64,000 bases of DNA from Psococerastis gibbosa. Taxonomy: Eukaryota; Arthropoda; Insecta; Psocodea; Psocidae. Positions 6,641-63,494 of the stretch are shown here, in pieces. The stretch spans positions 24,205,464 to 24,269,463 of the forward strand of contig OZ020490.1 of the NCBI GenBank assembly GCA_963971405.1, written 5' to 3'. Every line of letters starts with the position of its first letter. Within the stretch, counting starts at the first letter, position 1. Made by a program: the position numbers and the translations under genes. The notes under the pieces are model-generated. The model was given only the letters and a program-made list of their open reading frames with translations. It made no database searches and was not told the DNA's origin.

Positions 6641-7057
6641 AAAGAAGGAAAATAACCTGACATTCTACTTCTACGGGGCTTATAAACGAGTGAGGTCACT
6701 TTTGGTCACTCATCTATCAATCAAAGATAATAAAAATAAATAGACGGCACCTAACCATAAGCTAATTAAGGCCGGTAGCGGTAAAACGTAGGGGGAAATG
6801 CCAAATGAAAAGGGAAGTGTGGTCAATGGAAATTTGCCAAGCTTTTTGTTCTAGACCGGAACAAACTCAACTTACAAAATGTTACCAATGTTGTGATAAA
6901 TAAATAATTAATTCGTGTATTTTTCACAATATACAACACATATAATATGCTATTTTGTTCTGTTAATGTGGGTTCCCTTAGCCACCGGTGACCGGGGTAC
7001 CGATATTATGATGTCTTACACTATTTTGAATTAGGTACCTACTAGGTACGAGGTAGC

Positions 7058-7725
7058 AAACGGCCTTACCAAGTTGAATTCACAAGGGCAGAGTGTGTTT
7101 CAAACTACGGCAAAATTGGTAGTGTGCACAACATTGGCAGGGGCACATGGTGGGACGTGATAACGCGCTGAGACTATACCAGTCAGTCTACGTGCGTGGC
7201 GAGTCCTGGTCACCTCCTAATTATTCGTGTGCCTTTACTATGCTCCCCCTTGCTTTGGAATCCACTATAACCAGGAGGTCCACCCTGTCAGTCAATTCCC
7301 CTTTCCCCCGAGGTGAAGGAGTCTGCCCTTAGTGTGCCTCAACCGGCAGCCATACCAAGTTGAATCCAGCGGACCAGAGCAGGTTCAAAGCTGCAGATAA
7401 TCTGGTCGTGTGCACAGTGCCGGTAGGGAAACATGGTAGGACTTGTCCTGGTCACCTCCGAATTAATCGTGTGACTTCACTGTGTTTTCCAAGTGGTTCG
7501 GAATCCACTATAATCAGGAGGTCCACTGTCCTATGGGCTGGCATAGGACAGTCAAGTCGGGATCGCTCTATGGGCCGAGATATGAGGCCTTAGTCGTTAT
7601 TAACCCGACGAACATAACTACGACTACTAGTGTGCCTCAAGTTAACAAACAGACTCATTCCCACTGCCAGGCTGACAGCAGGGTTGCTTATGGCAAAAGT
7701 ACTGAAAGCAGGCTTGGAGACAACA
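7058..7725 (+). mobile_element. 5S-headed SINE R4, split by an R3 insertion
   Basis: The R4 head lies at about 7058-7100, the body with CACCCTGTCAGTCAA runs to 7342, and the tail (AGGCTGACAGCAGGGTTGCTT, CTGAAAGCAGGC) resumes at 7641-7725. Between them is an R3 element (7343-7627) bounded by TAGTGTGCCTCAA on both sides. R4 was therefore already present when R3 inserted. Confidence 0.75.
7343..7627 (+). mobile_element. 5S-headed SINE R3, nested copy
   Basis: The element starts near CCGGCAGCCATACCAAGTTG and carries the family core AAGTGGTTCGGAATCCACT and TAATCAGGAGGTCCACT, ending in a CTA-rich tail. A 13-bp duplication TAGTGTGCCTCAA lies at 7330-7342 and 7628-7640, showing insertion by target-primed reverse transcription into an R4 copy. 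The tail region is somewhat longer than in the other three R3 copies. Confidence 0.85.
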
Positions 7726-7794: not shown

Positions 7795-7965
7795 TCAAGT
7801 GGTTCGGAATCCACTATAATCTGGAGGTCCACCCTGTCAGTCAACTGCCCTTCTCCCTGAGGTTAGGGAGTCCGCCCTTAGTGTTCCTCAAGTTAATAAA
7901 CGGACTCACTCTCTCCACCGGGCTGACAGGGTTGCTTAAAGCAGAATTGCTGAAAGTAGGCGTTT
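7795..7965 (+). mobile_element. 5S-headed SINE R4, 5'-truncated
   Basis: It starts inside the family at GTGGTTCGGAATCCACTATAA and runs to the R4 tail with CTGAAAGTAGGCGTTTGAAA. The head is missing, typical of incomplete reverse transcription. Confidence 0.7.
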
Positions 7966-8272
7966 GAAAAAAACTCATCATATCTGCAAGGTCATGACCA
8001 GAGCCTACGGGAGTAGGTTGATACTGCAGAATTTAGGTACCTATTATCTTCTCAAGTGGATCCCATACCTTCAACATGTAAGGAGTACTTAAATGAGTTC
8101 TCAGGGCTAGTTATAATGGTGAAGATGACTGCGAATAGGGAGAGGACATAGTTTTTACTGGTATTTACGTAGACAGGGTCAAGTAGCCATGAGCGCAAAT
8201 GCAGTAACGACGTTGACGCATAGGCGTAGGTAGGACCAGGGACGGTTGGGACGCCTGGGTACTGATAGTAAT

Positions 8273-9618: not shown

Positions 9619-9795
9619 TAGGACATGTAGAGTAGTGGTACTACTCCGACATTCACCCCAATAGGTTGTTAGTTCGAGTGCTACACTGGCTACATTTTAT
9701 GGCCATGCTTCGGAGGGCATGTAAAGCAGGCAATCCCACTTCAGTGTAAGAGAGGGCTTCATTAGATTGCGCTTAGTAATAGAACAATAAGTCAT
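9619..9795 (+). mobile_element. tRNA-derived SINE (tSINE), copy 1
   Basis: A box A-like stretch ATGTAGAGTAGTGGTA and a box B-like stretch GTTAGTTCGAGTGC are followed by the body CTACATTTT..GGCCATGCTTCGGAGGGCAT and the tail GCTTAGTAATAGAACAA. These match the family consensus, in which box B is GGTTCGAGTCC. The sequence is diverged and would not fold into a working tRNA. Confidence 0.75.
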
Positions 9796-11883: not shown

Positions 11884-12262
11884 GCCAACGGCCCTACCAT
11901 GTTGAATCAACCAGAGCAGAGTCTGTTCCAAATTGGGGCAAACTTGGTAGTGTGCACAGCGTTGGCAGGGGAACATGGTGGGTCATGATAACGAATTGAG
12001 ACCATACCAGTCAGTCTGCGTGCATGTCGAGTCCTGGTCACCTCCAAATTAATCGTGTGACTTTACTATGTTCCCCAAGTGATTCGGAATCCACTATAAT
12101 CAGGAGGTCCACCCTGTCAGTCAACTCCCCTTTCCCCCGAGGTGAAAGAGTCTGCCCTTAGGGTGCTTCAAGTTAACAAACAGACTCACTCTCCCCGCCA
12201 GACTGACAGGGTTGCTTAAAGGCTAAAGCAGAAATGCTGAAAGCAGGCGTTTGAAACAACAA
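11884..12262 (+). mobile_element. 5S-headed SINE R4, full copy
   Basis: The head GCCAACGGCCCTACCATGTT followed by GAATCAACC closely matches the 5' end of insect-type 5S rRNA (GCCAACG.CCATACCATGTTGAATACACC). A later CTTGGTAGTGTG may derive from the 5S internal element region. The body contains GTGATTCGGAATCCACT and CACCCTGTCAGTCAACTCC, and the tail GAAATGCTGAAAGCAGGCGTTTG. It is non-coding. Confidence 0.75.
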
Positions 12263-12272
12263 CACATTCAAA

Positions 12273-12359: not shown

Positions 12360-12510
12360 AAGTGGTTCGGAATCCACTATAACTATAACAAATTAATCGT
12401 GTGACTTTACTATGTTCCCCATGTGATTCGGAATCCACTATAATCAGGAGCTCCACCCTGTCAGTCAACTCCCCGAGTTACTTTAAGTAGAAGTACTGAA
12501 AGCAGGCGTT
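12360..12510 (+). mobile_element. R4 SINE fragments, rearranged
   Basis: The core GTGGTTCGGAATCCACTATAA appears twice within 80 bp, followed by TCAGTCAACTCC and the R4 tail. This suggests an internally duplicated and deleted R4 copy. Confidence 0.55.
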
Positions 12511-12947
12511 GGAAAAAAAATATGTTAGTACATTATTATAATATCTGAAGTCTCTTCTTCTTCGATTACATGCAGTGTGTTAACATAAACTAAGACTTAA
12601 CCCATAAAGCGCATTTACTGGGACATTTCCTTGGTAATAAGGTATTTATAGGGTATGTATTTGTAATATATTTGTGTTGGGTAAATGTCAAGAGGTCAAG
12701 GGAAGCCGGAGATGAGCAGAAGACGTTGACGAAGAACCCAACACATGCTCAAGAATACTAAACTTCACTTCAAGGCCAAGGAGAAAAAGGAATAGTACTT
12801 AAATCGGAACAGGTTTATAATTGAACAATACACACGTTTTCGTGAATGCGAAACGGATATACAACTTGATTCGCGGCAAATTTGAAAATGCATTATGCGA
12901 TACGATGTTTAATGCAGCCACAGCCTATGTCAGTAATCGTCAACCGT
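12511..12947. other. Unassigned sequence
   Basis: AT-rich sequence with no repeat partner or exon recognised by reading. Confidence 0.35.
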
Positions 12948-13157
12948 CAGGGCATGTAGAGTAGTGGGACAGACTCCGACTTTCTCCCAAAAGGTTGTTG
13001 GTTCGAGACCCACATTTGCTACATTTTCTGGCATGGAGGGCATGTAAAGCAGGCGGTTCCGGGCCTTCCCAGTTGAGTGTATAAGAGAGGGATTTATAGC
13101 CCTAACTCCGCTAGTTTGGCTTAGAGTTATAAATAGAGCAAAGTCAATATTTATTTA
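12948..13157 (+). mobile_element. tSINE, copy 2
   Basis: Box A-like GCATGTAGAGTAGTGGGAC, box B-like TTGTTGGTTCGAGACCC, the body with GGGCATGTAAAGCAGGCGG and GTATAAGAGAGGGATTTATAGCC, and a tail ending AGTCAATATTTATTTATTTAA are all present. It is one of the longer copies. Confidence 0.8.
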
Positions 13158-13313
13158 TTTAACCTTAGGCCTATTTCTTTTCAAGCCTCTCTAACTGTGG
13201 CATGATACAGGAGTAAACCCTTGAAGGTTTAGGCACCATAGTATGGTTTGTTATATTGATGGGCTTATTTGGTAGGATAAGCTATTGCTCACATTCATTG
13301 CTGTGCCAACCAA

Positions 13314-13656
13314 TTTGATTCCACGAGAACAGAGCTTGTTCCAAACTGCGGCAACTTGGTAATGTGCACAGCGTTGGCAGGGGAACATTGTGGGGCATGA
13401 TAACGCGTTGAGAGGTCAGTCTACTTGCGTGGCTAGTCCTGGTCACCTCCAAATTAATCGTGTGACATTACCATGTTCCCCAAGTGGTTCGGAATCGACT
13501 CTTATCAGAAGTTCCACCCTGTCAGTCAACTCCCCTTCTCCCCGAGGTGAAGGAGTCTGCCCTTAGGGTGCCTCAAGTTAATAAACAGACACACTCCCCC
13601 GCCTGGCTGACAGGGTTGCTTAAAGCAGAAATTCTGAAAGCAGGCTTTGGAAAAAT
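13314..13656 (+). mobile_element. 5S-headed SINE R4 with 13-bp duplication
   Basis: The head is TGCCAACCAATTTGATTCC, more diverged from 5S than other copies. The body has CCAAGTGGTTCGGAATCGACT and CACCCTGTCAGTCAACTCC, and the tail GAAAGCAGGCTTTGGAAAAAT. The flanking 13-bp repeats ACATTCATTGCTG at 13301-13313 and 13657-13669 match perfectly, showing retroposition. Confidence 0.88.
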
Positions 13657-20483: not shown

Positions 20484-20672
20484 ACCTGTAGAGTAGTGGT
20501 ATGGACTCCGACATTCCCCCGAAAGGTTGTCAGTTCGAGTGCCACACTTGCTATATTTTTTGACTATGCTTTGCAGGGCATGTAAAGCAGGGGGCCCCGA
20601 GCCAACCTAGCTGCGTATAAGAGAGGGCGTTATAGCTGTAACTCTACTAGGTTGGCCTAGTAATAGAACTTA
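20484..20672 (+). mobile_element. tSINE, copy 3
   Basis: CCTGTAGAGTAGTGGTATGG (box A), AGGTTGTCAGTTCGAGTGCC (box B), the body GGGCATGTAAAGCAGG and the tail GGTTGGCCTAGTAATAGAAC are all present. Confidence 0.78.
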
Positions 20673-22386: not shown

Positions 22387-22527
22387 CACTAAACTAGGAA
22401 AGCTCGTAACCGCCTGGTTTACATGCCCTCCGAAGCATGGCCAGAAAATGTAGCAAGAGTGGTACTCGAACCAACAGCCTTTCGGGTGAAAGCCGGAGTC
22501 TGTACCACTAACCTACTCATGTCATAA
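22387..22527 (-). mobile_element. tSINE, copy 4, truncated
   Basis: It reads AACTAGGAAAGCTCG, CATGCCCTCCGAAGCATGGCC, GGTACTCGAACCAACAGCC (reverse box B) and ACCACTAACCTACTCATGTC (reverse box A). The 3' tail part is absent, replaced by the LINE end to its left. Confidence 0.75.
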
Positions 22528-23867: not shown

Positions 23868-24073
23868 AATAAGGGCTTTTTGTTCTATTACTAAGCCAAC
23901 CTAGCGGAGTTAGGGCTATAAAGCCCTCTCTTACACTCAACTAGGAAGGCCCGGGACCGCCTGCTTTACGTGTCCTCCGAAGCATGGTCAGAAAATGTAG
24001 GAAGTGTGGGACTGGAACCAACAACCTTTCGGGTGAAAGTCGGAGTCCGTACCACCACTCTACATGTCTTGAA
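23868..24073 (-). mobile_element. tSINE nested in hAT element
   Basis: TTCTATTACTAAGCCAACCT, CTTACACTCAACTAGGAAGG, CATGGTCAGAAAATGTAGG, TGGGACTGGAACCAACAACC and CCACTCTACATGTC follow the tSINE in reverse, complete from tail to head. Confidence 0.82.
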
Positions 24074-29427: not shown

Positions 29428-29623
29428 TATTGACTTTTTTTGTTCTATTACTAAGCCAACCTAGCGGAGTTAGGGCTATAAAGCCCTCTCTTACACTCAA
29501 CTAGGAATGCTCGGAACCGTCTGTTTTACATGCCAAAATGTAGGAAGTGTGGGACTCGAACCAACAACCTTTTGGGTGAAAGTCGGAGTCTGTACCACCA
29601 ACCTATAGGCTGCATGTCCTGAT
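29428..29623 (-). mobile_element. tSINE, copy 7
   Basis: ATTGACTTTTTTTGTTCTAT, TAAGCCAACCTAGCGGAGTT, CACTCAACTAGGAATGC, TGGGACTCGAACCAACAACC and GCATGTCC follow the family in reverse; the box B complement is perfect. About 20 bp of the CCGAAGCATGGCC segment is deleted. Confidence 0.8.
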
Positions 29624-31395: not shown

Positions 31396-33749
31396 ATGTG
31401 TGATGGCCCACCATGCTACGAGGATGTTATGGGCGGGAAAAAGGGCAAAAAGTACGCCAAAAAGCCTGCTGGGAAACAACCATCTTCCAAAGCCAGACTA
31501 AGCCGTCGGAAGTCCCGATATGAAAGCTCAAGCAGGTTAGTCCAATGATTTTAAAACAATAGAGTAGATGACGTGAGCTAATACTTGTCTTAGTTGTCTT
31601 ACACCTTTTAACCTGCTAATGTTAGTAAAAAATCCTAGTCGCTTTTAGTGTAAATTGTCATGTCAATTCTACTAGAACAGTTGAATCCATAGATTTTAAT
31701 AATAATACTAGATAGCGAACTCCCATACCCTCTGTAGGGAGTGTTGTGAAGCCATCCGCCATTGCTATAAGTGCATAGAAAGAACGGAAAGAACGCAAAG
31801 TACCTGTTCTTAAATGGGTACTTCTCGACGAAATAAATTTTATCTTGATTTAATTTCAGTTAATATTGTCTTTTATGTAACTATTGATCAAAATCCACAG
31901 AAAATAAACTGAAAGATTGAACTTTTGAAAGTAATTTTCACAGAAAATGTTAGGAAATCTCATGAAAACTCAAGGTGTAAATGATTGTAAACAAAGTTTT
32001 CTATGCACTTATAGCAATGGCGGCTGGCTTCAAAATATGCAGGGGAGTTCGCTATCTAGTATTATTATTAAAATTTATGGTTGTATCATATCAACGATTT
32101 CTGAATTGTTCAACACGAATGACTCTACTTTTGTTTGTATTGACTTAGAATATACATTAATGCGCATATTCCACCTACGTCAATAGTCAATGCCACATTT
32201 ACTATTGACTATTGACGTAGGTGGAATATGCGCATTAATGTATATTCTAAGTCAATACAAACAAAAGTAGAGTCATTCGAAGCCGCCAACTTAACAACAA
32301 TACTATCACAGTTTAGCCAGACTAATTTTAAATAGCTATGGCGGCTATTCCACCGGCGATTTTACTTCATATTTGATTTTGTGAATTTTGTCATTGATGT
32401 TTGTTTTGTTTTAAGGAGACTATTATGTAGATACTTAACTTATCTCTAATAAATTAAGTTATAATATGGTAGAGACTTATTATAACTTAATTTATAATAG
32501 ATAAGTTAAGTATCTACATAATAGTCTCCTTAAAACAAAACAAACGTCAATGGCAAAATTCACAAAATCAAATATGAAATAAAAAATCGCCGGTGGAATA
32601 ACCGCCTAATGGCGGGAAAATATTTTAAGACTTAGCAGAAACTTTATAGAAGACGCTAGAGTTTTATATCCATTGTATAGGAGATGGGTCTCCCGCCAAA
32701 TTTTGTTTTTTGAATTTTTGGTGCTAACTTCTTTGGCCAGTCACAGCACGCGTTGGGTACTTACAAACAATTACAAATCTAATGACTATTAACAGGACAG
32801 GCAATTTAAGTCCATCTAACCCTTTGTTTAATAATAACAAATCCCGTCGTGGCTGCAGGACTTCAATTGGCCGAAGTTCTTGGCAAAGAAAATGTGGCAT
32901 CGAAAAAATTAAATTACTCGTGAATTCGTGGTACAGTATTTAATTTTGATTAACAAACGAAAACAACGTGTTTTATCTAAACATGTTATAACAGATATAA
33001 CTAGAATTAGTAAAACCCAAATAATCGTCAAAAAATTAACTTTATCTACGAAACCCACTAGCTTTTGTAATAACACTAGTGGGTTTCGTTGACAATGTTA
33101 ATTATTTGGGATTTACTAAGGCGGGGTTTCCACATACGTCAATGGTCAATGAGAAATATGGTTTATTATTCTTATTATTCAACTTATAGTTGTTGTAGCA
33201 AGTTTAGAGAAAACACTTTTTTCGTTTGTTTACTAAAATAAAATACCAAGAAGTTTTTCCATTAATAATGCCCCGTTTTTTTGCCAAGAACTTCGGCCAA
33301 TTGACACGTCTTCAAGCCTTGCAACCATGTTTTATTATTTGTTATTTTTTGGAAGTACTCAAAGCGTGCTCTCATTGTTCAAAGAAGGTGGCAACAGGAA
33401 TTTCCAAAATATTTTTTAAGTAGATGTCCCATCTCTTTAGAAGAAGCCAATACAAACTACCCAACAGGGAAACCCTTTTTAATTTTTGATCTCGGCCGAT
33501 TTCATCTCGACCTGAATTTGAAGGATTTGTTTGTAAATCACTTTATTGTCGTTCAATATAATGCTAATTAATTCATTCATTCAACAGCGTTGTTGTTGTT
33601 GCAGCGAATCAGAATCATCTTCCTGCGACTGTTCAGACTGCGAGCCGCCAACACGCAGGAGGAATTCAACCGGGGCCAAACGCTCGCGCGCCGCGCCAAA
33701 AAAGAAGACTTCGCGCCAAAATTCCTGTTGCTGCGGAGACTGCTGTTAA
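31396..33749 (+). CDS. Small basic Cys/Ser-rich protein, two coding exons
   Basis: Coding exon 1 is 31396-31535 and exon 2 is 33605-33749, giving 94 residues. Exon 1 follows an acceptor (TTATTTGCAG, ending 31362), with ATG at 31396 after a short leader, and ends at a consensus donor CAG/GTTAGT. Exon 2 follows TTGTTGTTGTTGCAG. The split codon (two bases plus one) stays in frame to TAA at 33747. The protein starts MCDGPPCYEDVMGG, then has a Lys-rich stretch (KKGKKYAKKPAGK), an Arg/Ser block, an acidic Ser patch (residues 43-53, ESSSSESESSS, CK2-like), CDCSDCE, a second basic block and a terminal CCCGDCC. It has 23 Lys/Arg, 10 Cys and about 17 Ser; no signal peptide or membrane span. High charge with paired cysteines resembles protamine-like sperm nuclear proteins or a metal-binding tail, but no family was recognised. 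Function is therefore unknown. Confidence 0.6.
31687..32080. mobile_element. MITE with about 80-bp terminal repeats
   Basis: The left end CCATAGATTTTAATAATAAT, then ACTAGATAGCGAACTCCC and CCGCCATTGCTATAAGTGCA, is mirrored at the right by TGCACTTATAGCAATGGCGG, GGGGAGTTCGCTATCTAGT and ATTATTATTAAAATTTATGG. The centre is AT-rich and non-coding. Class not determined. Confidence 0.82.
32116..32279. repeat. Perfect palindrome, 76-bp arms
   Basis: The left arm 32116-32191 and right arm 32204-32279 are exact reverse complements at all 76 positions, separated by a 12-bp loop GCCACATTTACT. It includes TGACTTAGAATATACATTAA and CCACCTACGTCAATAGTCAA. The open frame at 31947-32186 crosses it and is not a gene. 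Confidence 0.95.
32340..32606. repeat. Foldback with about 127-bp arms
   Basis: The arms 32340-32466 and 32478-32606 pair almost fully: GGCGGCTATTCCACCGGCGA with TCGCCGGTGGAATAACCGCC, and AGGAGACTATTATGTAGATA with TATCTACATAATAGTCTCCT. The loop is 11 bp. A few mismatches and one or two small indels are present, unlike the neighbouring perfect palindrome. Confidence 0.92.
32863..33303. repeat. Nested inverted repeats
   Basis: The outer arms are TTCAATTGGCCGAAGTTCTT (32863) and AAGAACTTCGGCCAATTGA (ending 33303). An inner pair, TTAGTAAAACCCAAATAAT with ACGAAACCCACTAG (33007-33060) and CTAGTGGGTTTCG with ATTATTTGGGATTTACTAA (33073-33120), lies between them. After the inner pair comes GGCGGGGTTTCCACATACGT, related to the palindrome at 32116. 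Confidence 0.75.
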
Positions 33750-39849: not shown

Positions 39850-41890
39850 TGATGCAGACGTTTTTGTGCAGAATGATGAAAAATGGTGCCAAGTTTAAAT
39901 TTGCATAAATAAAACATTCATCCAAATTCCACCGCATATTTGGCAAACAAAACTTAGTGTATTTATTTTGGTTAATGCTAACAAGAATGATTCACATAAG
40001 ATCGTCAATATTACTCAGGCAAACTGATCTATTTTGATTGTAATCATAAAACGGACAGGGAAAATTCTTCTGATGATGATACAGCCGTTTTTGTCTAATA
40101 CGTGTCAGAAAGCGAGCCATGGTCCAAATTCACATGACATAAAACATGACTTTTTTTTACAGCTGGCAGGCAAGTTTAGATATCAAATTTACGCGCATAA
40201 AATTCCTCTTCACATTTGTCAAACAAAACTTAGTGTATTTATTCTGGTTAATGCGAACAAGAATGATTCATATAAGGGCGTCAAAATTACAAAACAGATT
40301 TTTTTTAAACTCAGGCAAACTGATCTTTTCTGAGAAAGAAAGCTTTCGAAAATTCTTCTGATGATACAGCCGTTTTTGCCTAGTTCATGACAGAAAGCGA
40401 GCCATGGTCCAAATTCTCAAGACATAAAACATGATGTTTTTTACAGCTGGTAGGGCAAGTCTAAATTTCAAAATTACCCGCATCCAAATTCCACCTCACA
40501 TTTGCCAAACAAAACTTAGTGTACGGTATTTATTCTGATTAACGCTGACAATAATGTTATTAGGTTATCAATATTAAAAAATAGATTCTATAGAAACCGA
40601 GTGTTAGAAAATTCTTCTGATGAATGATACAGCCGTTTTGCCTAGCATTATGACCATGACAAAAAGTGAGCCATGGTCCAAATTCATATAAATATAGAAT
40701 AAAACATTTTTTAGTGGCAAGTTCAATTTTCAGTCAGTGCGCGTGTACCTATGTCTGAATCCCTGTCCAATCGCATATTTGGAAAACAAAATTTTTTGAT
40801 TAATTTTTATATCATGGTTAAGTTAGTTTAGTTAAGAATAATTAGAAACAATATTTCACATTGGATTTTTCAAAATACTTTACACTCCAATACAACGGAA
40901 ATGATGCTCCAAAAAATTTTCCTAATCATAATACAGCCGTTTTTGCCCCATTTCTATCAGAAAATGGGAGCCACGGTTCAAATTGACATTAAATAAAGAG
41001 TAGAACATTTTTGACTGGGCAAGTTTACTTTTCATTAATTCTATATTAATCTATTATATCCCCATTCAATCACATATTTGGCAAACAAAATTTACTGATT
41101 TAATTTCGTAGTTGGTGATAAAACGGGTGTTTCTTCAATATGTCAAAATAGACTCTTTCAAAATCCAATACCGATTATATTTTACTATAGCAAGTGATAG
41201 GAGGTCGGAAAATTTTTCTAATGATGGTACAGCCGTTTTATTATGATTAAACTTAGGGTAGCCCATTTGCCGCTGTACAACTGACATCAAAGCCAGATCT
41301 GAGCAATTTATCTCAAACATCTCAAATAAAAATAATAATTTAGTTTAATGCCGAATCGGTCTCATTAAAAATTAAAATTCTACTAATGAACATTCTGGTA
41401 ATATCGTAAAAGTAGGAAAACAAAACTTAGTGATTTACTGTTAAAGAAACTAAAGCAGTAAATCTACCCTAATTTTTTTCAATTCGATGTTTCCAAAACT
41501 CAGGCAAAACTATTGTTGTATATGTGTGTTCAGTGTTCGTAAATGCATACGCTACATCCGTTTTATTATGATTAAACTTAGGGTAGCCCATTTGCCGCTG
41601 TACAACTGACATCAAAGCCAGATCTGAGCAATTTCTCTCAAACATCTCAAATAAAAATAATAATTTAGTTTAATGCCGAATTGGTCTCATTAAAAATTAA
41701 AATGCTACTAATGAACATTCTGGTAATATCGTAAAAGTAGGAAAACAAATCTTAGTGATTTACTGTTAAAGAAACTAAAGCAGTAAATCTACCCTAATTT
41801 TTTTCAATTCGATGGTTCCAAAACTCAGGCAAAACTATTGTTGTTTGTGTGTTCAGTGTTCGTAAATGCATATGCTACAGCCGTTTTCAA
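39850..41890 (+). repeat. Divergent tandem array, about 300-bp units
   Basis: The anchor word ACAGCCGTTTT (with variants) occurs at about 39854, 40081, 40366, 40629, 40933, 41229, 41554 and 41878, spaced 227-325 bp. A second anchor, AACAAAACTTAGTG or a variant, occurs once per unit in the same phase. The last two units (325 bp) are nearly identical; the others are strongly diverged. No coding frame is shared between units. Confidence 0.88.
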
Positions 41891-41899
41891 ACAGTTTCA

Positions 41900-43540
41900 C
41901 GCCACAAATAAAGCCTTGAAATTTGAATATAATAAAAATAATATTCTATTGATTTGACTAACTTCAAATTTTCACAATTTTGCGCCGTTTCAACTCTAAT
42001 CAAAATTTATTTAACAACACGAGCTTTTAATAGATACAAAAACTGAACAGCTTGTACAAGAAAATAATGGCAACACTTCCAGCTTTTCATTAAAAACAAA
42101 CAAAAATGTTTTATGAAGTTACTTTGATGTGAACTTGGACATTTGGAAAGTTCTGGCTACTTTCAGACTACTTAAATGCAAATCACCATCTCCCAGTAGA
42201 CAGAAATACTTAGGAATAAAAATTTTTAATTAAAAATTTAAAAGGGGCATTGTTTCGTAGGAACAACTGCAAAACTGTACTGCAATTGCTAAATTAACAC
42301 ATTTAGATGCCAAGGCATTGCGATCGGATATTTGTTTGTTTATGAATGTATGAAATTGTGTCACTTTTTAAAAATTGTTGTTTCATGCATTCGATGTGCT
42401 CTGTTGTTAAATGATTTTAATTTTTTAACGTTTTAATTCTTATACAGTGCATTGTGGCATATTTTGTATGTATAGCATAGTTAACATAGATAATGCTACA
42501 AAACTTGGAACAAAATTATAACGTATAGTTTTATTTCTCTCATATAAATTAGATCTGTCCATCTGTAATATTTGAAAGTAAAGCAACCTGAAAATGAACT
42601 AGGCTATAGTTCCAAATTTTCTAGCCTTATTTACGTTCTAAACTTGTGTTTTGTGCCTGGTTTCACTTGATTTTAATGAATGTTTTGTGCCTCAAGTGTT
42701 ACAAATAAATTATAATAATGCACTACCCAATTTTTCGTTATTATTTACCTGACAAAGAAACAGAATGCAAATTAATTTGTTACATTTCTATAGGCGCTGG
42801 GAAATGAGAAAAATAGTATGTATATCGATTTTCTATTATGTAGGTACAAAATAACCGCTTAGAAAGCTTACAATTCAGAGTGCCGGCCAAGTCTCCCCAG
42901 GCAACGGTACACCACGGTACGGTAGGCTGGTTTAAAACAGTTCTGGTATTATTTCTACTATGCTTTTACATTGCCTACCATTCCAGAATTTTATTTTATT
43001 GATTAATATATTATTATAAACAAATGGTATAATATATATATATAGATTGAATAATATTCGTAATAAAATATTGTATTGTAGTTAAAAAAAAGTTACAAAA
43101 TGGGACACTCAGTTGAAATGTTAAACTATGTGAAATTTATTGAAAGGAGCATTTCTGATAATTTCATGGATAATTTTGACGATTCTACAATCGATATTTC
43201 CTATGTGAAAATCGACAATAGAACAAAAAAGGGTTGGGGGGGGGGGGTACTTCGATTTGCATTAAGTAACCTAGAAACGGTTGCGTTTACATCTATATTA
43301 GAATAAGCACCAGTATAAATACAATACCTAGCTGGCAAACCTACACTGGCCAACCACAGGCCATCGGCACCAATAACCTACGGCTTAAGGTATAATATTT
43401 CCATTAGGAAGAGGAAAGGTGTTCACTGTTCACGGCCACGGCTAAACTAGCATTTATATGCGGCGACTACGTAGCAGCAATCTTCCGTCAATCGTGTAGA
43501 CATTTCTATGCTATTTCATACAACTGAGCGATGACAACGT
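41900..43540. other. Unassigned AT-rich sequence
   Basis: No exon or repeat partner recognised; one G-run of about 12 near 43227 and a TA microsatellite near 43035. Confidence 0.35.
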
Positions 43541-43572
43541 CAGGGCAGCAGTTAAACGAAGAAACGACGAGT

Positions 43573-44370
43573 GAGACGAATCGCAGTCATATTGACGCAG
43601 AAAATGTATTGAGCTTCCGACAGTAAAAAGTCGCGACAAAACGTAGAGCGTTCACCAATCGCGTGGGTAGTTGTACGCGGTTTCATACGACTGAGCGATG
43701 ACAACGCCAGGGCAGCAGCAACACAGCAGAAACGATGAGTGAGACGAATCGCAGACATTTTGACGTAGAAAATGAATTGAACTTCCGACAATACAAAGTC
43801 ACGACAAAACGTAGCGGTTTCACCAATCGCGTGGGTAGTTCTACGCTGTTTTATCCAGCTGAGCGATGACAACGCCGGCAGAAGCAACACAGCAGATACG
43901 ACGAGTGAGACGAACCGCAGTAATCGACAAATATTTTTGACGTTGAAAATGAATTGAGTTTCCGACAATACAAAGTCTCGACCAGACGTAGAGCGTTAAC
44001 CAATGCTGAGCGGGAACAATTCCAGGGCAGCAGTAACGCAGCAGAAACGATGAGTGAGACGAATCGCAGACATTTTGACGTAGAAAATGAATTGAACTTC
44101 CGACAATACAAAGTCACGACAAAACGTAGCGGTTTCACCAATCGCGTGGGTAGTTCTACGCTGTTTTATCCAGCTGAGCGATGACAACGCCGGCAGAAGC
44201 AACGCAGCAGATACGACGAGTGAGACGAACCGCAGTAATCGACAAATATTTTTGACGTTGAAAATGAATTGAGTTTCCGACAATACAAAGTCTCGACCAG
44301 ACGTAGAGCGTTAACCAATGCTGAGCGGGAACAATTCCAGGGCAGCAGTAACGCAGCAGAAACGACGAGA
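43573..44370. repeat. Higher-order tandem repeat, 315-bp dimer
   Basis: The word GAGACGAA recurs at 43573, 43741, 43907, 44056 and 44222, with GAGACGGT at 44371, giving intervals of 168, 166, 149, 166 and 149 bp. The 166+149 pair is duplicated as a 315-bp unit almost without change; the first 168-bp monomer is an older outlier. As 315 is divisible by three, repeated minus-strand frames stay open, but they repeat the array and were rejected as genes. Confidence 0.9.
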
Positions 44371-45896: not shown

Positions 45897-46650
45897 ATAT
45901 GTAGAGTAGTGGTACAGACTCCGACTTTCACCCGAAAGGTTGTTGGTTCGAGTCCTACACTTGCTACATTTTCTGGCCATGCTTCGGAGGGCAATTAACA
46001 TAAAGAAAAATAATGTTTCCACGCTTATTACCCCACTATTTGATTATTGTATTGTATTATCATCCAGTCGCACGGATTATCTGTCTCGCCATTTGCTACG
46101 GGCAATGAACAGTTGCATCCGATTTATTTTTAACTCTAAGCGTCGCGACCATATTAGCCCACAGTACAAAATACTAAATTTCCTAACCACCGACCAAAAA
46201 ACACAATACCAAGCACTGATGCTAATGTATAAAGTAACCCACTCAAACGCACCTTCCTACATCATACAAAAATATACAAAATTACAGTCACAGCGCAATG
46301 GCACAACATATGAAATACCACTACATAAGACCACAGGACATGGGCAATCTACGGTATTGTACTCGATTCGCCACTGGAACCGCCTACTATTCCTCTCTTT
46401 TCATCTTCTCCATTTAATTTTAATTAATATATAATAGCCTACAATGTTTTTTTTTTTAGTTTTTAAGGTTAACATGAAAACAAGACTTTATCGTCTTATT
46501 TATTGCTCGCCTTTTGTTAGCAATAAAGTCGTTTTTTCATTTCATTTCATGTAAAGCAGGTGGTTCTGGGCCTTCCTAGTTGAGTGGAAGAGAGGGCTTT
46601 ATAGCCCTAACTCCGTTAGGTTGGCTTAGTAATAGAACAAAAAAGTCAAT
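45897..46650 (+). mobile_element. tSINE interrupted by a LINE
   Basis: ATGTAGAGTAGTGGTACAGA, TTGTTGGTTCGAGTCC (perfect box B) and GCCATGCTTCGGAGGGCA form the 5' half, to 45993. The 3' half resumes at GTAAAGCAGGTGGTTCTGGG (46551) and ends AGTAATAGAACAAAAAAGTC. Elsewhere in the window these halves are contiguous, so the LINE inserted within GGCAT/GTAAAG. Confidence 0.85.
45994..46552 (+). mobile_element. LINE ORF2 C-terminal part and 3' tail
   Basis: The plus-strand frame encodes TLITPLFDYCIVLSSSRTD, RAMNSCIRFIFNSKRRDHIS, QALMLMYKVTHSNAPSYI and SIRHWNRL. PLFDYC..V..., RAMNxCIRFIF and the LMxMYKxxHxxxPxYL segment typify the region after the reverse-transcriptase domain in CR1/Rex1-like elements. 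The 3' UTR ends AATAAAGTCGTTTTTTCATT with a TTTCA tail. Five-prime truncated to about 560 bp. The frame at its upstream edge reads SINE sequence and is not part of the protein. Confidence 0.85.
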
Positions 46651-48682: not shown

Positions 48683-48908
48683 TGCCGGCCGCCATACCAT
48701 GTTGAATCCAGCGGACCAGAGCAGGTTCGAAGCTGCAGATAAATTGGTCATGTGCACAGTGCCGGTAGGGAAACATGGTAGGACTTGTCCTGGTCATCTC
48801 CGAACTAATCGTGTGACTTCACTGTGTTTCCCAAGTGGTTCGGAATCCACTATAATCAGAAGGTCCACTGTGGCCTGGGACTGTGTCAAACCATACTACT
48901 ACTACTAC
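48683..48908 (+). mobile_element. 5S-headed SINE R3 with 14-bp duplication
   Basis: It starts TGCCGGCCGCCATACCATGT and GAATCCAGCGG, close to the 5S 5' end, then carries GGTTCGGAATCCACTATAA, and ends with CATACTACTACTACTAC. The flanks TAGTACAGCAATCA are identical at 48669-48682 and 48909-48922. The clean duplication and similarity to the other copies suggest recent mobility. Confidence 0.9.
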
Positions 48909-54430: not shown

Positions 54431-54664
54431 TCCCATACCAAGTTGAATCCAGCGGACCAGAGCAGGTTCAAAGCTGCAGAAAAATTGGTCGTGTGCACAG
54501 TGCCGGTAGGGAAACATGGTAGGACTTGTCCTGGTCACCTCCGAACTAATCGTGTGACTTGACTGTGTTTCCCAAGTGGTTCGGAATCCACTATAATCAG
54601 GAGGTCCACTGGAGTCCTATGGGCCCACACCGTGGCCTGGGACTGTGTCAAACCATACTACTAC
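54431..54664 (+). mobile_element. 5S-headed SINE R3 with 13-bp duplication
   Basis: It begins TCCCATACCAAGTTGAATCC (a few head bases lost), has the core GGTTCGGAATCCACTATAA, and ends CAAACCATACTACTAC. The flanks TAACACTGGGGTA are identical at 54418-54430 and 54665-54677. Confidence 0.9.
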
Positions 54665-54677
54665 TAACACTGGGGTA

Positions 54678-59037: not shown

Positions 59038-59276
59038 GCCGGCCGCCATACCAAGTTGAATCCAGCGGACCAGAGCAGGTTCAAAGCTGCAGATAAATTG
59101 GTCGTGTGCACGTGCCGGTAGGGAAACATGGTAGGACTTGTCCTGGTCACCTCCGAACTAATCGTGTGACTTCACTGTGTTTCCCAAGTGGTTCGGAATC
59201 CACTATAATCAGGAGGTCCACTGGAGTCTTATGGGCCCACACCGTGGCCTGGGACTGTGTCAAACCATGCTACTAC
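59038..59276 (+). mobile_element. 5S-headed SINE R3 with 13-bp duplication
   Basis: It starts GCCGGCCGCCATACCAAGTT, has GGTTCGGAATCCACTATAA, and ends AACCATGCTACTAC. The flanks TAGGCCACGGGGC (59025-59037) and TAGGCCATGGGGC (59277-59289) differ at one base. This is the most complete head among the R3 copies. Confidence 0.9.
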
Positions 59277-59289
59277 TAGGCCATGGGGC

Positions 59290-62776: not shown

Positions 62777-63494
62777 CAGGGGTTCCCAACCTTTTTTGTC
62801 CGTGGACCACTTGATTATTTTATGATTTTCCGTGGACCACCATGGCTGAGATAGGAAAATCGTCAAATTCTAGGACCAAGATCAAATAGTTTGTGTTGTT
62901 TCCAACGCCTGCTTTCAGCATTTCTGCTTTAAGCAACCCTGTCAGCCTGGCGGGGGGAGTGAGTCTGTTTGTTAACTTGAGGCACCCTACGGGCAGACTC
63001 TTTCACCTCGGGGAAAAGGGGAGTTGACTGACAGGGTGGACCTCCTGATTATAGTGGATTCTGAACCACTTGGACAACATAGTAAAGCTACACGATTAAA
63101 TCGGAGGTGACCAGGACTCGACACGCACGTAGACTTTCTGGTTTAGTCTCAGCGCGTTATCATGTCCCACCATGTTCCCCTGTCAACGCTGTGCACTCTA
63201 CCAAGTTTGCCGCAGTTTGAAACATGCTCTGCTCTCATGGAATCAACATGGTAAGGCCGTTGGCAAAACTATCAAATAGTTTGTGCCTGCAATTAGCCTA
63301 CTAAATACGTGCTAATATTTTATTAAATGTTTGGGACTGATATCGGTTAGATTTTATACTGTAGTTCTGTGCCAAGACTTACTGTATTTTACTAATTACC
63401 AATAACTCAGCTGTTTTATTTTGTTATTCCTTACTTTCCTCCGTGAACCATTTGATATACAGTATGTCTGTGGACCACAGTTTGGGAACCCCTG
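62777..63494. mobile_element. hAT non-autonomous element, nested SINE
   Basis: The ends CAGGGGTTCCCAACCTTTTT and CAGTTTGGGAACCCCTG are classic hAT terminal repeats, each followed inward by GTGGACCAC words. The 8-bp flanks are poorly conserved (four of eight). Removing the inner SINE (62896-63270) and one duplication leaves about 330 bp with no transposase. Confidence 0.82.
62896..63270 (-). mobile_element. 5S-headed SINE R4 with 15-bp duplication
   Basis: On the minus strand it starts GCCAACGGCCTTACCATGTT, runs through GGTTCAGAATCCACTATAA and CACCCTGTCAGTCAACTCCC, and ends GAAATGCTGAAAGCAGGCGT. The flanks ATCAAATAGTTTGTG are identical at 62881-62895 and 63271-63285. It retroposed into the middle of a hAT element. 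Confidence 0.92.

Follow-up and report, generated by a model that had tools for sequence, protein, structure and literature searches.

Short interspersed elements (SINEs) with 5S rRNA-derived heads have been described from several arthropods. They include SINE3-1_TC of the beetle Tribolium (named in PMC3272025 and PMC6401454), HaSE3, PxSE4, PxSE5, LaSE2, CsSE2 and further lepidopteran SINE3 elements, and the SINE3-1_TC motif is carried by planthopper elements (RPSlS). PxSE4 and PxSE5 of Plutella xylostella have one 5S head and a common 5′ part followed by two 3′ ends; in their promoter region, where box A, IE and box C can be identified, identity to 5S is ~63% (PMC8010984). In HaSE3 of Helicoverpa armigera (PMC3272025) and in lepidopteran SINE3 (Kojima 2024, PMC10886601), the box A-IE-box C region is the most 5S-similar and upstream sequence is divergent, as far as the available text of these papers describes them. 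A first-pass annotation of the DNA studied here had called 5S heads in an arthropod noteworthy on the ground that such SINEs are known mainly from vertebrates. That ground falls away, since 5S-headed SINEs are already reported from Tribolium, Helicoverpa, Plutella and other moths, and one pair among them combines a single head with two 3′ ends.

Two SINE families, R3 and R4, were analyzed in a 64-kb stretch of Psococerastis gibbosa DNA (the window) and across the genome. By the available description, they resemble PxSE4 and PxSE5 in joining a 5S-like head and shared body to two 3′ ends and tails, in having thousands of copies and in their arthropod host; they differ in that the boxes are recognised there and not here. 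They resemble HaSE3 and lepidopteran SINE3 in being 5S-derived and in modular exchange with other SINEs, whereas similarity in those elements, as excerpted, peaks in the promoter and R3 and R4 show the reverse, with the start kept. SINE3-1_TC and the planthopper RPSlS can be likened to them, again by partial description, as 5S-type SINEs outside vertebrates. What appears novel relative to the published elements is a similarity confined to the start, ending at about nt 24, with boxes that are not recognisable.

The host had been taken for an arthropod, and this is supported by a 5S that is presumably of insect type and by a mitochondrial contig with trnL2(taa) between cox1 and cox2, a pancrustacean trait. 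The first 10 kb of this contig (L029) are rearranged, with trnM, trnC, trnI and trnQ ahead of nad2 and without nad3 between trnG and trnA. Nuclear COX1 fragments are many; of the 43 matches listed, 42 lie outside the mitochondrial contig.

R3 and R4 are genuine high-copy SINEs with a 5S-derived start. Both are short and dispersed, with consensus lengths of 376 nt for R4 (29 copies: 27 genomic, among 40 scored, and 2 from the window) and 242 nt for R3 (22 copies: 20 genomic, among 40 scored, and 2 from the window). Across the 409-Mb genome, which contains the window, a core 37-mer has 12,357 matches, an R3 head 49-mer 4,745 and an R4b head 34-mer 2,938, each at ≤3 mismatches. An R3 head 26-mer occurs exactly 1,782 times, an R3 tail 20-mer exactly 564 times and an R4 head pattern with one free position 484 times. 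Reversed-pattern controls gave 0 for every count. The tails are triplet repeats, (AAC)n in R4 and (CTA)n in R3. An automatic rule with a minimum of 8 bp detected target-site duplications at 16/22 R3 and 14/29 R4 copies, 9–15 bp in length; the remaining 6/22 R3 and 15/29 R4 copies have none by this rule, which is strict and misses some duplications visible by eye, such as one beside 62894-63264. Among 30 duplications, 14 abut the first aligned head base (nt 1 in 13 of these) and the other 16 stop 1–2 nt before it, the largest gap that the rule allows, so that the retroposed RNA would have begun at or beside the equivalent of 5S +1. Ten R3-tail loci without a listed exact head were all R3 copies, and 4/10 are 5′-truncated, starting at nt 23, 77, 188 and 194, as after target-primed reverse transcription. 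These features bear out the first-pass identification of both families as SINEs. Mean identity to the consensus is 99.2% for R3 (n=22, range 89.3–100) and 95.9% for R4 (n=29, range 92.1–97.1), values that overstate youth because the copies were chosen as best matches. R3 looks recently active, judging from its 1,782 exact 26-nt heads.

The R4 copy that drew attention lies at 11884..12262 on the forward strand and, across 11884-12264, shows 92.1% identity with the R4 consensus. Its nt 1–24 (11884..11907) form the 5S-like leader, with 2 mismatches to host 5S. CGTTGGC at 11960..11966 (head nt 77–83) is complementary to nt 1–7, as the 5S helix I equivalent, and shows compensatory changes in R3. 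The core common to R3 follows at 12031..12112, and the R4-specific 3′ end, with CTGAAAGCAGGCG and a short (AAC)n tail, at 12172..12264. The automatic rule detects no target duplication around this copy. A second forward-strand R4 copy (7056..7342) is broken by an R3-type insertion and resumes, reaching 7725; the inserted R3b-type SINE (7343..7628, forward) is flanked by a 12-bp duplication, AGTGTGCCTCAA, read by eye at 7331-7342 and 7629-7640. Further forward-strand R4 sequences are a 5′-truncated copy (7796..7972), a rearranged fragment of core and 3′ end (12393..12518) and a copy without the first ~12 nt (13309..13653). On the reverse strand, the R4 copy at 62894..63264 is 96.5% identical to the consensus, with duplication ACAAACTATTTGAT by eye and 6 extra nt ahead of the head. 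R3 copies, all forward, lie at 48684..48904 (duplication TAGTACAGCAATCA and (CTA)n tail), 54433..54666 (matching from head nt 9) and 59038..59278 (98.8% identical to the consensus). A degenerate R3/R4 head pattern allowing ≤3 mismatches hits 6 sites in the window and 0 in shuffles.

Other repeats occur in the window. A further family is present at 9626-9724, 12955-13053, 20487-20585 and 45900-45998 on the forward strand and at 22445-22515, 23992-24062 and 29535-29605 on the reverse strand. It is probably a tRNA-derived SINE, to judge from its sequence; the 45900 copy contains the box-B-like GGTTCGAGTCC, and ARAGORN finds no tRNA. Near-perfect hairpins lie at 32116-32279 (arms 76 nt, 100%) and 32360-32584 (arms 107 nt, 95%), with microRNA-family matches below the gathering score. 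Both are probably hairpin transposons, because parts of the second recur in a dispersed 5S locus (L084). Direct repeats at 43489-44305 and 41228-41852 have spacings of ~168 and 315–325 bp.

R3 and R4 had been proposed as two related families with a common head and core and different 3′ parts, and the consensus sequences agree. Nucleotides 1–103 align without gaps at 78/103 identical positions. R3 lacks a stretch of ~44 nt that separates the head from the core in R4. The 82-nt core is closer between the families than the head, at 77/82, and beyond it the 3′ parts are unrelated. Each family also occurs in a second form: R4b for R4 and, for R3, R3b, which keeps the (CTA)n tail behind a different 3′ part. 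The CTA tail originally assigned to R3 stands; CTGAAAGCAGGCG, originally read as the R4 tail, is instead part of the unique 3′ end that precedes the true (AAC)n tail. Use of the core behind other heads was considered and rejected: all 20 perfect-core loci on C1, picked for having no exact head listed, carry an R4 (12) or R3 (8) head. Two exact core patterns had 0 matches in IMG/VR. Six R3/R4 strings returned a single, unrelated match in literature text, a search that lies outside Repbase and Dfam.

Host 5S genes were read at 15 loci, where the commonest starts are GCCAACGGCCATACCATGTTGAAC. Against the host's own 5S, nt 1–24 match at 22/24 positions in R4 and 19/24 in R3, in register from +1, so both families have a 5′ end from 5S rRNA. 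The chance of such a match for one fixed 24-mer is 9e-12 (R4) and 4e-8 (R3). Local alignment of the whole consensus with 5S scored 42 for R4 (shuffles: mean 19.9, sd 2.9, largest 31) and 34 for R3 (mean 19.2, sd 2.8, largest 33), and 0/500 shuffles reached either score. Scanning the window with the 5S start at ≤3 mismatches returned 2 sites, both R4 heads, and a mean of 0 in 100 shuffles. The copy at 11884 matches host 5S at 25/29 of its first 29 nt. The 5S-like start that had been claimed is thus present, but the strong match ends at about nt 24 and not at 26–29.

The R4 start fits the array 5S type, GCCAACGGCC, and not the GTCAACGACC type, which begins 13/15 dispersed 5S loci (L074-L088). 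These dispersed copies were considered as longer-headed 5S SINEs, and this was rejected. At 14/15 a full-length 5S precedes T-rich sequence and the flanks vary, as would be seen for scattered genes or gene copies; the fifteenth, L084, was not placed by script, and 5S is readable in its sequence. Some of the dispersed loci have upstream flanks in common.

Beyond nt 24, 5S similarity was sought by several alignments. From nt 25 onward, the local score was reached by 93/500 shuffles for R4 and 295/500 for R3. Global alignment of nt 25–98 under four scorings was equalled by 177–1072/2000 (R4) and 60–349/2000 (R3) shuffles, and alignment with one cheap long gap under three scorings by 527–1287/3000 (R4) and 194–550/3000 (R3). 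Semiglobal alignment and fixed-register counts did not recover box A, IE or box C, and cmscan with the covariance model found no 5S match in the window or around each element. Drosophila 5S has intragenic elements at 3–18, 37–44, 48–61 and 78–98, as cited in the available part of PMC3215682. Element I of this type is kept at 15/16 positions in R4 and 12/16 in R3, and element IV in register at 12/21 in R4. Elements III and IV together, scored near register and post hoc, were equalled by 84/5000 (R4) and 1495/5000 (R3) shuffles. The best promoter-region results are this R4 value and the 60/2000 obtained for R3 under one of the four global scorings; given how many tests were run, neither remains significant.

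When 5S heads were decayed in simulation by substitution alone, with no indels, they were detected over nt 25–98 in 500/500 cases at 50% identity and 354/500 at 45%, and 0/500 scored as low as the observed heads at any identity tried. Statistical power is not limiting for substitution decay of the head.

Alignment of the heads to box A, IE and box C had been set beforehand as the test of the 5S assignment, and only partial counts were obtained. With shifts of ≤2 allowed, box A reaches 6/12 (R4) and 5/12 (R3), IE 3/6 and 4/6, and box C 7/11 and 6/11, and none is recognisable. R3 and R4 are left out of SINE3 because the internal promoter of that class, with box A, IE and box C, was sought and is not found in them. 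No Pol III promoter was identified: the best A box is 6/8, and the best B box 8/10 in R4 and 7/10 in R3, scored against a general box consensus with no shuffle control. On the same basis, R3 has an A box (6/8, nt 93) and a B box (7/10, nt 154) in possible order; the strongest R4 B box, at nt 141, has no A box ahead of it among the top three. A tRNA origin of the core is conceivable, as its string GGTTCGGAATCC looks like a B box carrying an additional base. ARAGORN found no tRNA. TTTT is absent from the elements, as expected by chance.

The heads can form a stem comparable to 5S helix I. Nucleotides 1–7 of R4 pair with nt 77–83 (GCCAACG/CGTTGGC) over 7 bp, and nt 1–6 of R3 pair in the same columns over 6 bp, including one G-U. 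Two compensatory changes separate the families, with A-T in R4 against G-C in R3 at pairs 4-80 and 5-79; one further pair is G-C in R4 and G-T in R3, and pair 7-77 is lost in R3, forming in 1/38 copies. The table covers 85 copies, with 6 lacking letters at stem columns left aside, and pairs 1–6 form in 39–40/41 R4 and 35–38/38 R3 copies. The evidence amounts to the two changes between families, because copies within a family are related. Stem length alone is weak against shuffles (255/5000 for R4, 869/5000 for R3). Shuffles fold nt 1–83 as well in 5/200 cases for R3 and 90/200 for R4, so only R3 beats them (folding energy z -2.2; R4 z -0.02), and the R4 stem drops out of the minimum-energy structure when the folded sequence is extended by 20 bases or to the whole element. 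The pattern is suggestive of a helix I equivalent that may have been kept by compensatory change.

R3 and R4 are probably LINE-dependent SINEs with a composite 5′ half, a 5S-derived start and, in each, its own 3′ end and triplet tail. They would be non-autonomous retroposons sharing a ~103-nt head and the 82-nt core, with a head RNA that begins where 5S rRNA begins. Beyond this start, the head would have diverged or been replaced until the 5S internal promoter became invisible. Transcription most likely starts at the first head base, and the RNA 3′ end is most likely recognised by a LINE reverse transcriptase. Copying into the genome would proceed by target-primed reverse transcription, whose signature is seen in the duplications, triplet tails and 5′-truncated copies. 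The two families may have separated by exchange of 3′ ends behind the common 5′ half.

How the head acquired its start admits several explanations. The resemblance over 24 nt is short, as chance or convergence would have it, but a 22/24 match from the exact first base, reached by 0/500 shuffles and recurring in two families, makes that origin very improbable. If R3 and R4 were standard SINE3 elements whose 5S-type internal promoter still works, the kept element I and element IV in register in R4 would be accounted for. This reading is nonetheless improbable given the low counts for all three boxes, since the available accounts put the PxSE4/PxSE5 promoter regions at ~63% identity to 5S and make the boxes of HaSE3 its most 5S-similar part. 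A head that comes from a small RNA and lacks a clear internal promoter may have a precedent in the snRNA-headed SINEU elements, with a different RNA and host.

A decayed whole 5S head is only slightly more likely than a captured leader. If the head descends from an entire 5S gene, the last three quarters of it, with IE and box C, disappeared or contracted and both strands of helix I stayed; we rate this as a realistic possibility, though short of an even chance. The helix I equivalent in the same columns of both families, its A-T to G-C exchanges and its pairing in nearly all copies argue for it, as does the post hoc result for ICR III plus IV in R4 (84/5000). The corresponding R3 value (1495/5000), the broken pair 7-77, the weak stem lengths, the ordinary folding energy of R4 and the non-significant alignment with a free long gap speak against it. 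It is nearly as likely that only ~24 nt of 5S were gained, by a template switch of reverse transcriptase, and that the promoter and the rest of the head derive from elsewhere. R3 and R4 are similarly alike in nt 1–24 (19/24) and nt 25–103 (59/79), yet only nt 1–24 are 5S-like, and the simulated heads, which remained detectable in 500/500 cases at 50% identity without indels and never scored as low as those observed, point the same way. A captured leader alone does not predict a helix I-like stem (1–7/77–83) that stays paired through two double changes. Nor does it sit easily with the best ungapped match of R4 to 5S 49–66, which falls at offset -1, ranked first among 180; in R3 this offset shares first place.

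The different 3′ parts had suggested mobilisation by different LINEs, and it is plausible that R3 and R4 were mobilised by two. R3 and R3b, however, have one (CTA)n tail in common despite different 3′ parts. Of the 150 reverse transcriptase places listed, 30 loci that are mutually similar downstream of that domain were examined and gave no LINE tail match, only a SINE insertion in L105. The ten R3-tail loci were all SINE copies and included no LINE. In the window, a reading frame from 45910 to 46434 looks like a LINE C-terminus, although it has no Pfam match, and the 3′ end behind it, up to 46545, contains ATTTC repeats. This element was rejected as the R3/R4 partner by its tail.

A more doubtful proposal is that 5S supplies the RNA 5′ end only, as a 24-nt leader closing a helix I-like stem that compensatory change has maintained, and that another promoter drives transcription. 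If true, 5S would give the retroposon RNA a cap with a structural or protein-binding role. R3 and R4 separate two roles of a SINE head that are usually confounded, promoter and RNA 5′ structure, and a family whose identical heads number well over a thousand makes this question accessible to experiment.
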